A DNA stretch of 12,963 nucleotides from an uncultured Clostridia bacterium. GTDB lineage: Bacteria; Bacillota_A; Clostridia; Oscillospirales; Oscillospiraceae. Both the position numbers and the translations under genes were made by a program. Below, piece by piece: positions 1 to 6,757 of the stretch. Every line of letters starts with the position of its first letter. The first letter of the stretch is position 1. The notes below the pieces were generated by a model that searched no databases, had not been told where the DNA came from, and saw only the letters and a program-made list of their open reading frames with translations. The stretch is from assembly GCA_947167435.1 (NCBI GenBank), contig CAMVIC010000017.1, positions 1 to 12,963 on the forward strand, read 5' to 3'.

Positions 1-321
1 GGTCAGAATGCCCGCCAGAATCACGGGGATGCCCAGCTTGGTGTGCAGCAGGCCCGTGACCAGGCCCGCCAGCATCCCGGCCAGCACGGCCACCAGCAGC
101 GCCACCCAGGCGGGCTTGCCGCTCAGAATCAGCATGACCGTCACCGCGCCGCCGGTGGTGAAGGAGCCGTCCACCGTCAGGTCGGCCACGTCCAGCAGGC
201 GGAAGGTGATGTACACACCCAGGGCCATCAGGCCCCAGATCAGGCCCTGGGCAATGCCGCCGGGCATGTTTTTAAAGAGCTTCAGAATGTTCAGCGATGC
301 GAAATAAGCAGTGATACCCAC
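1..321 (-). CDS. ABC transporter permease, TrpY/COG4120-like (partial, N-terminal 107 residues)
   Basis: This is the membrane subunit of an amino-acid-type ABC importer; only the N-terminal 107 codons lie in the window and the frame runs off the left edge. The chosen start is GTG at 319-321 because GAGGAGAC lies about 8 nt upstream and no in-frame ATG fits. A short amphipathic N-terminus precedes residues such as QGLIWGLMALGVYITFRLLD and then DLTVDGSFTTGG, the signature opening of permeases that partner PF04392 (TrpX-type) binding proteins. At least two hydrophobic segments follow. It lies about 90 bp downstream of the substrate-binding protein gene on the same strand, so they form one operon; the ATPase gene (COG1101 type) is expected just outside the window. 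Family assignment is confident; the substrate is inferred from the leader described below. Confidence 0.85.
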   Translation of the reverse strand, partial: MGITAYFASLNILKLFKNMPGGIAQGLIWGLMALGVYITFRLLDVADLTVDGSFTTGGAVTVMLILSGKPAWVALLVAVLAGMLAGLVTGLLHTKLGIPVILAGILT

Positions 322-410: not shown

Positions 411-1385
411 TCAGGCGGCTTCGGCCTCGTCCGCGCCGATGGCCACGTAGTCCTCGGGAACGGTGATGCCGAGAGCGGCGCACAGGTCGGCGTTATACTC
501 CTTGACGAACTCCGGCGCGTACTCGATGGGCATCTCGGAAACCTCGGCGCCGTTGACCAGAATCTCATAGGCCATCAGGCCGGTGGCGTAGCCGATGTCG
601 TAGTAGGAGATGGACAGAGTGACCACGCCGCAGCCGGCGCACAGGTTCTCCTCGCCGGCGACGATGGGCACGCCCGCGGGCTGTGCCACGTTGTTGATGG
701 CCTCGGCGCAGGAGGCGGCGGTGTTGTCGGTGGGGATGTAGAGCACGTCGTTATCCTCGCAGGCGGAGGCGGTAACAGTGGCAACGTCGTTGGAGTCGGT
801 GAAGGTGTAGGCGGTCACGGTGTAGCCGTGAGCCTCCAGGAACGGGGTGATGGTCTCAACCTGGTACTTGGAGTTGGCCTCGGCGGAGCAGTAGAGGATG
901 CCTACGTTCTTGGCATCGGGGAAGATCTCGGCCAGCATATCGGCCTGACCGTCCAGAGGCGCCAGGTCGGAGGTGCCGGAGACATTGATGCCGGTGACGC
1001 CGTTAAAGTCGTCCAGATCCAGGGCAACGCCGTACTCGGTGATGGAGGTGCCCAGAATGGGGATGGAGGGCGTGGCGGCCTGGGCGGCCTGCAGGGCCGG
1101 GGTGGCGTTGGCCATGATCAGGTCCACTTCATCGGACACGAACTGGTTGACGATGGTGACGCAGGTGGCGGAGTCGCCGGAGGCGTTTTGCTCGTTGAAA
1201 ACGACCGCGTCGCCCAGCTTCTCGCTCAGGGCATCCTTGAAGCCCTGGGTGGCCGCGTCCAGCGCGGGGTGCTGTACCAGCTGGCAGATACCCACGTTGT
1301 AAGTCTCACCATCGGCAAAGGCGCTGACGGCGCACAGAGAGAAAACCATACACAGAGCGCAGAGAACAGCAAGAATCTTCTTCAT
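411..1385 (-). CDS. ABC transporter substrate-binding protein, TrpX-type (PF04392/COG2984)
   Basis: A 324-residue secreted solute receptor. Residues 1-24 form a classical signal peptide (MKK, hydrophobic core, SAFA|DG cleavage). No proper lipobox is visible, since the only nearby Cys reads FSLC. The mature protein opens with YNVGICQLVQHPALDAATQG, which is typical of the TrpX family. It also contains NQNAxGD-like residues (NEQNASGD), the NATPALQAA stretch, and a second lobe beginning NVGILYCSAEANS, as in PF04392 proteins that deliver aromatic amino acids or related ligands. The start at 1383-1385 is set by GGAGGAAAG five nucleotides upstream; the open frame extends further but into the leader terminator region. 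It is the first structural gene of the operon with the permease. The Tyr/Trp-rich leader upstream suggests tyrosine or another aromatic amino acid as ligand (inference). Confidence 0.88.
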   Translation of the reverse strand: MKKILAVLCALCMVFSLCAVSAFADGETYNVGICQLVQHPALDAATQGFKDALSEKLGDAVVFNEQNASGDSATCVTIVNQFVSDEVDLIMANATPALQAAQAATPSIPILGTSITEYGVALDLDDFNGVTGINVSGTSDLAPLDGQADMLAEIFPDAKNVGILYCSAEANSKYQVETITPFLEAHGYTVTAYTFTDSNDVATVTASACEDNDVLYIPTDNTAASCAEAINNVAQPAGVPIVAGEENLCAGCGVVTLSISYYDIGYATGLMAYEILVNGAEVSEMPIEYAPEFVKEYNADLCAALGITVPEDYVAIGADEAEAA

Positions 1386-1410: not shown

Positions 1411-1440
1411 TTTCCGGGAAGCGGTCCGACCCGCCGGAAA
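1411..1440 (-). other. Stem-loop between attenuator and ribosome binding site
   Basis: On the minus strand TTTCCGG (1440-1434) can pair with CCGGAAA (1417-1411), enclosing a smaller GCGG/CCGC stem. It lies after the attenuator U-tract and before the binding-protein ribosome binding site. It could stabilise the readthrough mRNA or insulate the ribosome binding site; its role is not shown by sequence. Confidence 0.45.
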
Positions 1441-1473
1441 ACAGAAAACCGCACGGCTGAAGTCCGTACGGCT
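1438..1473 (-). terminator. Attenuator terminator in the aromatic-transporter leader
   Basis: On the minus strand CCGTACGG (1471-1464), loop ACTTCAG, CCGTGCGG (1456-1449) form an 8-bp stem with one G-U pair. It can be extended by a G-U and an A-U pair and is followed by the U-rich tract TTTTCTGTTTT. This is an intrinsic terminator placed between the leader peptide and the structural gene. Its 5' arm is shared with the proposed antiterminator. Confidence 0.75.
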
Positions 1474-1513
1474 GAAATGCTCCGGTCAGGGTCCGATAAG
1501 CAGCACAGACTTC
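1459..1513 (-). promoter_or_regulatory. Antiterminator stem competing with the leader terminator
   Basis: On the minus strand GAAGTCTGTGC (1513-1503, beginning at the last base of the leader stop codon) can pair over 11 bp, with two G-U pairs, with GTACGGACTTC (1469-1459). The second arm covers most of the 5' arm of the terminator plus its loop, so the two structures exclude each other. A ribosome terminating at the leader stop would cover the first arm and allow the terminator. A ribosome stalled at upstream Tyr codons would leave it free. The pairing is read from sequence; the mechanism is inferred by analogy with known amino-acid attenuators. Confidence 0.7.
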
Positions 1514-1572
1514 TATACGCTGGTTTTCCAGGTATAGCGATATCTGTATGCGGAATATCGGATCATCGTCAT
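1513..1572 (-). CDS. Tyrosine-rich leader peptide (19 aa) of transcription attenuator
   Basis: A tiny gene encoding MTMIRYSAYRYRYTWKTSV. Tyr occurs at residues 6, 9, 11 and 13 and Trp at 15, a very biased composition. A consensus AGGAGG (1584-1579) stands 6 nt before ATG, so it should be efficiently translated. It lies about 20 nt downstream of the promoter-proximal start of the transcript and upstream of a terminator/antiterminator pair. Its 3' half forms a hairpin at the RNA level: CTATAC plus CTGG pairs with CCAG plus GTATAG (1537-1513, one bulged C, loop AAAA), which the translating ribosome would open. The expected role is to sense charged tRNA-Tyr (perhaps also tRNA-Trp) and control the aromatic amino-acid transporter. 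It is too short for homology; the call rests on composition, ribosome binding site and RNA context. Confidence 0.78.
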   Translation of the reverse strand: MTMIRYSAYRYRYTWKTSV

Positions 1573-1599
1573 AACGCGCCTCCTGTGGATCGTGACCAT

Positions 1600-1628
1600 A
1601 CTTTAACTCTTTTTGGTGTTAAAGTCAA
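1600..1628 (-). promoter_or_regulatory. Sigma-A promoter of the aromatic-transporter operon
   Basis: On the minus strand TTGACT (1628-1623), a 17-bp spacer and TAAAGT (1605-1600). The predicted start near 1593 gives an RNA of about 210 nt before the binding-protein ATG, enough for the leader peptide and attenuator. Confidence 0.7.
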
Positions 1629-6611: not shown

Positions 6612-6666
6612 GGAGTGTCCCCCTGCCTTTCCAAGAAAAAATGTCCTGCCGGACGGCAAGACACAC

Positions 6667-6692
6667 AAAAACCGGGCGCGCTTTCGCGCACC
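6667..6692 (-). terminator. Attenuator terminator in the pyrR leader
   Basis: On the minus strand GGTGCGC, loop GAAA, GCGCGCC (6692-6675, one U-G pair), then CGG and TTTTT (6671-6667). It sits between the PyrR-binding motif and the pyrR ribosome binding site. Confidence 0.75.
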
Positions 6693-6712
6693 TTCGCTAT
6701 GGACGATCTTGC

Positions 6713-6728
6713 CGGTCTCTCTGTACCG
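6713..6728 (-). promoter_or_regulatory. PyrR-binding loop
   Basis: On the minus strand CGGT, ACAGAGAG, ACCG. A short stem presents a loop with the CAGAGAG core found in PyrR-binding loops of Bacillus and relatives. It starts about 25 nt into the leader RNA and about 20 nt before the attenuator terminator. The exact antiterminator pairing is not clear to me. Confidence 0.7.
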
Positions 6729-6757
6729 AGGCTTAAAAATCTGTTTTTCCGAGGCTC

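Follow-up and report, generated by a model that had tools for sequence, protein, structure and literature searches.

Ribosome-mediated attenuation operates in the trp, his and phe operons of Proteobacteria, while Firmicutes are thought to favour T-boxes and binding proteins. The leader analysed here, which precedes a putative tyrosine importer gene in an uncultured Clostridia bacterium, resembles these Proteobacteria attenuators in having a leader ORF with cognate codons, alternative stems, an intrinsic terminator and an amino-acid gene downstream, but differs from them in its phylum, in its tyrosine codons and in having a transporter as its target. Ribosome-mediated attenuators are outlined in one report (PMC9413887), and His leader peptides of Firmicutes are in print, as the relevant portions of two papers indicate (PMC2965389, PMC9413887). 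The latter are likewise leader-peptide attenuators from a phylum in which T-boxes abound, but they have histidine codons and belong to other lineages and genes. Phe/Tyr uORFs have been associated with shikimate genes, according to a figure legend (PMC6429828, Fig. 6b), and an excerpt of another paper describes uORFC-13-1, a uORF with Phe that precedes aroF in Acholeplasma (PMC8632094). Set side by side by description only, these uORFs and the present leaders have in common that a uORF with aromatic codons precedes aroF or another shikimate gene, and these uORFs are probably the nearest prior observation, although tyrosine uptake is not mentioned in those portions of the two papers (PMC6429828, PMC8632094). 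The Trp T-box that controls trpX/trpXYZ in Streptococcus suis, as given in part of its report, concerns the same transporter superfamily and also responds to aminoacylation (PMC9382623); it is, however, a tRNA-binding RNA for tryptophan, and no T-box lies in the present leader.

A preliminary description of this DNA, made from the sequence alone, had suggested that a tyrosine-specific peptide attenuator in this group may be undescribed. This is true in part only, because Phe/Tyr uORFs, the Acholeplasma Phe uORF and the Firmicutes His leaders are published; what stands is that no tyrosine leader peptide on a tyrosine transporter was found among the literature matches listed, in a search with subscription literature mostly outside its scope. 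The proposed mechanism is classical, and the additions are its tyrosine-uptake member, the breadth of the family and its codon swaps.

Architecture of the leader

The window, by which we mean the whole stretch of 12,963 nucleotides analysed, carries on its minus strand a gene for a tyrosine-type ABC substrate-binding protein (PF04392, ABC_sub_bind; 411..1385) and one for an ABC permease (BPD_transp_2; 1..321) that continues beyond the window edge; judged by position, the two genes appear to form one operon. The promoter, the AGGAGG, the 19-codon ORF, the hairpin in its 3′ half and the 11-bp antiterminator, all pointed out previously, were found again on this strand. The sigma-70-type promoter TTGACT-17-TAAAGT extends over 1600..1628 (−35 element, 1628-1623; −10 element, 1605-1600), and TTGAC and most of the −10 element are invariant in the alignment of the 21 main-type loci described below. 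The Shine-Dalgarno sequence AGGAGG (1579..1584) is followed by the leader peptide ORF, MTMIRYSAYRYRYTWKTSV (1513..1572; ATG at 1572, stop codon TAG at 1515-1513), which has Tyr at codons 6, 9, 11 and 13, Trp at codon 15 and no Phe. Homologous leader ORFs are present at 20 other main-type loci.

Arm 1, GCAUACAGAU (1542..1551), lies within the Tyr codon run and has arm 2 as its partner in the minimum free energy (MFE) structure, and an inner hairpin, CUAUACCUGG / CCAG.GUAUAG (1513..1537), covers Tyr13, Trp15 and the stop codon. Arm 2, GAAGUCUGUGC (1503..1513), is the 5′ strand of the antiterminator, and arm 3 (1459..1469) serves both as its 3′ strand and as the 5′ arm of the terminator; folding and covariation point to both arms, which pair over 11 bp, 1513-1503 with 1469-1459. 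Folding and covariation also define the intrinsic terminator (1440..1472). It is present as first described, but its hairpin runs from 1472 to 1448, with a T-rich tail at 1447-1440, and not from 1471 to 1449. The window MFE contains a further stem, 1:2, missing from the preliminary description, in which 1510-1500 pairs with 1551-1542 inside the ORF, and the window element consequently has a complete 1:2 / 2:3 / 3:4 layout. Folding of the 162-nt leader region beats 199 of 200 dinucleotide shuffles (z −3.1).

The earlier statement that this leader has no T-box is borne out by the Rfam matches of the window (E ≤ 1), which all lie elsewhere and comprise a PyrR site below threshold, three tRNAs and three weak matches; the T-box model RF00230, with its stem I specifier loop and T-box sequence, had no match in the window leader. 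The PyrR-binding RNA (6634-6743, minus strand; 43.3 vs 54 bits) precedes pyrR and a uracil permease gene.

Conservation at orthologous loci

A scan of GTDB contigs with the window binding protein yielded 40 orthologous loci, or 41 with the window. A Tyr-rich leader ORF in frame behind a Shine-Dalgarno sequence, a motif of this kind being a precondition in the scan, was found at 26 of the 41 transporter loci, window included, and the scan found no such leader at the other 15 orthologues. One RNA design is shared by 21 of the 26, the five others being L009, L015, L022, L026 and L036. R1, a covariance model of the shared design, misses L009, L022, L026 and L036 at E ≤ 0.01 and matches L015 weakly. 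Another Tyr-rich leader type stands before the same transporter gene at L009 (3767), L022 (1845) and L026 (3747), where a Tyr cluster is followed by V.FAG or V.YAG and there are a hairpin and a terminator of its own.

Compensatory changes in the stems, which the preliminary description had led one to look for, are present in the 21 leaders of the shared design: 12 of 18 consensus pairs have changes on both sides, as do eight of the nine pairs of the inner hairpin helix, and 94.9% of cells are paired, in a consensus structure derived from the same 21-locus alignment. None of 500 shuffles scored as high, and slid controls gave 1-7 pairs changed on both sides. Loss of the Tyr codons or of the ribosome binding site with the hairpins kept, the pattern that was to speak against attenuation, was not seen: each of the 33 R1-matched leaders that precede a binding-protein gene has a Shine-Dalgarno sequence, an ATG and three Tyr codons or more. 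At the level of sequence, the leader observation is confirmed as real and more than chance, since the design recurs with covariation at 20 other orthologous loci.

Binding protein and ligand

The closest solved relative of the window binding protein is CD0873 (6hni), which binds tyrosine; its Glu-263 bonds to the OH group of this ligand and its Tyr-279 keeps tryptophan out, as stated in part of the structural report (PMC6816091). Glu and Tyr occupy these two positions in 41 of 41 binding proteins, including that of the window and those of the 15 orthologues without a leader in the scan; SP1069, a Trp-binder, has Ala and Gln there. Tyrosine had been proposed as the probable ligand, and this CD0873-type pair supports the proposal as far as that portion of the report goes (PMC6816091); the protein would accordingly act in tyrosine transport. 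Its score against the NCBIfam model NF041285 (TrpX) is 216 bits, below the curated cut-off of 390.

Two paralogues were observed behind T-boxes. The binding protein at L227, where the T-box has an apparent UGG specifier, keeps the Glu/Tyr pair, so that the pocket pair may not fix the ligand. The ABC_sub_bind protein at L216, where the apparent specifier is UUC, has Tyr at the position of CD0873 Glu-263 and is perhaps a phenylalanine importer.

Distribution of the R1 family

With a cut-off of E ≤ 0.1, R1 matched 11 of 12 related genomes, in one of which the match (L050) has no leader, and copies lie before aroF and/or tyrA in G001, G002, G003, G004, G008, G009 and G010. At E ≤ 0.001, matches were found in 103 of 300 genomes from the family to which G002 belongs (a close relative, and the source of L002), in 28 of 391 genomes of the class and in 3 of 299 of the phylum, G002 itself being counted in each sample and at least one match in each being apparently false. 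Even so, the share in the family contradicts the earlier view that such a device would be uncommon in this group. The apparently false genomes are G011 (of the 11), G041 (of the 103), G687 (of the 28) and G783 (of the 3), whose R1 matches lack a convincing leader-gene pair. No convincing leader-gene pair was found at the weak matches L057, L058, L059, L195 and L198, nor at L050 and L168. The locus examination left out G027, G142, G052 and G033, which besides G041 and G275 have the weakest matches of the family sample.

Among 139 matched loci, two of which are repeats in leader and protein start (L060 = L029, L061 = L030), the downstream gene encodes a DAHP synthase in 93 and a tyrosine-type binding protein in 33, both classed by sequence pattern; the remainder comprise three pheA/paaK, two sodium/solute symporters and one trpB-like gene, three loci without a gene in reach and four set aside. 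Ten representative downstream proteins were checked in NCBIfam, eight of them also in Pfam. An aromatic leader is present at 27 of the 28 class-sample loci, before 24 DAHP synthase genes and one each of tyrA, pheA and paaK. Removal of L050, L168 and the truncated L085 left 136 leaders for folding, L055 was excluded from peptide counts because the wrong ORF was called there, and later tests use unique sequences where stated. Phenylacetate-CoA ligase genes follow Phe-rich leaders of the same design at L128, L133 and L196, and at L097 and L161 sodium/solute symporters, candidate tyrosine symporters, follow leaders with Tyr:Phe of 5:1 and 4:1.

Folding under ribosome masks

When the whole window transcript is folded with no ribosome, it adopts the 1:2 stem and the terminator. 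If the footprint covers Tyr 6, 9, 11 or 13 or Trp 15 and the RNA ends with arm 3, arm 2 binds arm 3 in five of five cases, and a ribosome at the stop codon masks arm 2 and lets the terminator form. Once the transcript is complete, only the Tyr 9 and Trp 15 stalls have the antiterminator as MFE structure, so that at the other stall positions it would have to be formed first. Arm 3 pairs with the region behind the ORF to an extent of 0.25 with no ribosome, 0.58 with the ribosome on the Tyr codons and 0.08 with it at the stop; its pairing with anything upstream shows a smaller contrast (0.45, 0.58 and 0.39, respectively). Folding with the ribosome-covered segment constrained, as had been advised, thus gives classical attenuator logic in the window if the antiterminator is taken from RNA made up to arm 3.

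On computational grounds, the element is very probably a ribosome-mediated transcription attenuator whose signal is charged tRNA-Tyr and whose target is a tyrosine ABC importer. Leader-peptide attenuation under tyrosine starvation, as first envisaged, is the best reading of the masked folding, the conserved Tyr ORFs and the compensatory changes. The ORF, the codon bias, the covariation, the mutual exclusion of stems and the gene association were computed directly, and we infer stalling, termination, read-through and tyrosine transport. First, with ample tyrosine, the ribosome would reach the stop codon and cover arm 2 (1513-1503), leaving arm 3 free, and the terminator at 1472-1448 would end transcription. 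Second, with Tyr-tRNA scarce, the ribosome would stall at Tyr 6, 9, 11 or 13 and mask arm 1; arm 2 would then pair with arm 3 before arm 4 is synthesized, the terminator would be pre-empted and the importer made. Third, in the absence of translation, arm 1 would pair with arm 2, and termination would be the default.

Over the family, masked folding places more pairing on arm 3 with the ribosome on aromatic codons than with no ribosome in 117 of 136 leaders, and in 115 leaders more than with the ribosome at the stop (a longer footprint gives 118 and 117, respectively); in 19 of the 136 the aromatic stall does not beat the no-ribosome state. Among the 81 short-ORF leaders the corresponding counts are 74 and 76, against 30-41 and 38-47 in five linker shuffles, which preserve single-base content only. 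In absolute terms the folding model is not clean, and the pairing of arm 3 reaches one half or more in 74 of 136 leaders without a ribosome and in 77 with one at the stop. Tyr and Phe make up 19.6% and 19.1% of codons in the effective stall stretch and 9.1% and 8.1% outside it; Ala, Thr or Arg codons in this stretch score nearly as high, and in the model the stall effect is set by place, not by codon. The behind-ORF pairing score misplaces arm 2 in long ORFs and gives no signal in L010, L133 and L166, for which the any-upstream score shows almost no contrast (L010), a mixed one (L133) and, in L166, a moderate contrast to the state with no ribosome but none to a ribosome at the stop.

In swaps of arms between leaders, the native arm 2:arm 3 duplex is stronger than the swapped mean in 102 of 134 leaders and the native terminator in 134 of 134, while the native ORF:arm 2 (arm 1:arm 2) duplex is stronger in 89 of 134, a weak co-evolution. 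In 39 unique arm pairs with both anchors, out of the 136 leaders, positions 4-6 of the antiterminator extension are canonical in 28, 28 and 26 cases vs 15.8, 17.3 and 19.3 expected, and positions 1-3 and 7-9 show no clear excess over shuffles. The antiterminator and the intrinsic terminator are thereby predicted to be mutually exclusive.

Leader codons and the amino acid sensed

Tyr has a share of 0.62 of the aromatic codons in leaders of binding proteins (31 unique leaders), 0.49 in those of DAHP synthase (88), 0.23 in five pheA/paaK leaders and 0.82 in two symporter leaders, and the single trpB-like leader (...FYWYWFSF...) has two Trp codons. The binding-protein share differs from that of DAHP synthase with p=3e-6 and from that of pheA/paaK with p=4e-4, values that are rough because the leader sequences are related. 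Judging from these leaders, Tyr/Phe/Trp codon content tracks the downstream gene class. This variation, together with a window leader of four Tyr, one Trp and no Phe, makes it unlikely that the leader senses aromatics generally (Tyr, Phe and Trp) and not tyrosine, an explanation that nevertheless agrees with the Trp codon in the window leader, with the mixture of Tyr and Phe in most leaders (17.7% and 17.1% of residues in 128 unique leader peptides) and with 13 Tyr-Phe exchanges among similar leaders compared in 24 non-overlapping pairs. At the other aromatic positions of these pairs, 172 are unchanged or synonymous and 20 have changed to other residues. Over all codons the pairs have 53, 64 and 73 substitutions at codon positions 1, 2 and 3, with 38 synonymous codon changes and 96 non-synonymous ones, which indicates little coding constraint; the leader ORFs also show little of it when the aromatic codons are left aside. 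Tyr codons number 519 in frame and 21 and 114 in the other two frames, but codon and frame counts lean to Tyr/Phe, since leader ORFs were chosen by Shine-Dalgarno sequence, then ATG, then aromatic content.

In these Clostridia, one RNA design may have been retargeted by leader codon swaps, as T-boxes are through their specifiers and beside T-boxes in the same cell: tyrosine uptake would go with Tyr codons, DAHP synthase and tyrA with Tyr/Phe, pheA and paaK with Phe, and the trpB-like gene with Trp; we put the chances of this at about even.

Other modes of control

An inverted CTTTA/TAAAG lies over the window promoter (1600-1628, minus strand) and upstream of the binding-protein gene at L011, L012, L016 and L025. 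With up to one mismatch allowed, 14 of the 21 main-type loci have CTTTA...TAAAG half-sites that overlap the promoter at spacing 14 (0.1 expected by shuffling), and 9 of the 21 have them at spacing 6 (0.25 expected), one of the latter solely in the leader hairpin; leaderless loci have them in 5 of 15 at spacing 6 and in 4 of 15 at spacing 14. A relation to the CIRCE motif was rejected, because the half-sites are alike but the spacing differs. The half-sites of the window promoter resemble the HisR (TrpR-family) operator of Firmicutes as given in part of PMC9413887, and they are a possible second or alternative control. It is improbable, however, that a TrpR/HisR-family repressor at the promoter is the main control and the leader a minor one: half-sites well above the shuffled expectation and PF01371 genes in 10 of 12 genomes would suit such a repressor, but the half-sites coincide with the −35 and −10 elements, sufficient alone for their conservation, and the attenuator shows covariation and codon evidence of its own.

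Arrest of the TnaC type, with free tyrosine stalling the ribosome on a specific nascent peptide, is very improbable and was rejected. The peptide is indeed short, and the antiterminator would be favoured by any stall in the right stretch, but the peptide is little conserved save for its aromatic content, and its aromatic codons vary in number and place. That the leader is a T-box or other riboswitch with an accidental ORF is scarcely credible in spite of T-boxes above the Rfam cut-off in 12 of 12 related genomes checked and of the Trp T-box on trpX in S. suis (PMC9382623, in part), for T-boxes, other riboswitches and Rfam leader families had no match at the tested leaders (window, L001-L008, L010 and six further loci), and Tyr codons stand in frame behind a Shine-Dalgarno sequence at 26 of 41 loci.

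The preferred reading, a leader-peptide attenuator for tyrosine, would place this device beside T-boxes in the same genomes. Specifiers were assigned by inspection of seven CM alignments, and the codons given here follow from where we take the specifier to lie in them. An apparent UAC T-box precedes tyrS in G007, a genome that also has a tyrosine leader, and in G004 an apparent UUC T-box precedes a paralogous binding protein, while the tyrosine protein and DAHP synthase have leaders; leaders and T-boxes therefore share cells. Apparent UGG T-boxes stand before a binding protein in G008 and before the trpB-like gene in G001, G002 and G006. In G011 an apparent UAC T-box precedes a probable tyrS (named by resemblance only), and the R1 search found no tyrosine leader there. 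Before the trpB-like gene, one genome has a leader with Trp codons (L166, 1501-1648) and three have apparent UGG T-boxes (L209, L221, L222), an apparent switch of regulatory device at one gene.

Implications

Attenuation in its textbook form requires that a ribosome follow RNA polymerase closely, and in B. subtilis transcription reportedly runs ahead of translation. A conserved attenuator family in 103 of 300 sampled family genomes argues for transcription-translation coupling in these bacteria, and its members are native reporters for testing such coupling. The trpB-like gene, with its apparent Trp T-box in three genomes and Trp-codon leader in another, offers a natural case of the two devices. 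If the reading is true, these Clostridia would govern the uptake of tyrosine and several aromatic biosynthesis steps by one type of control.
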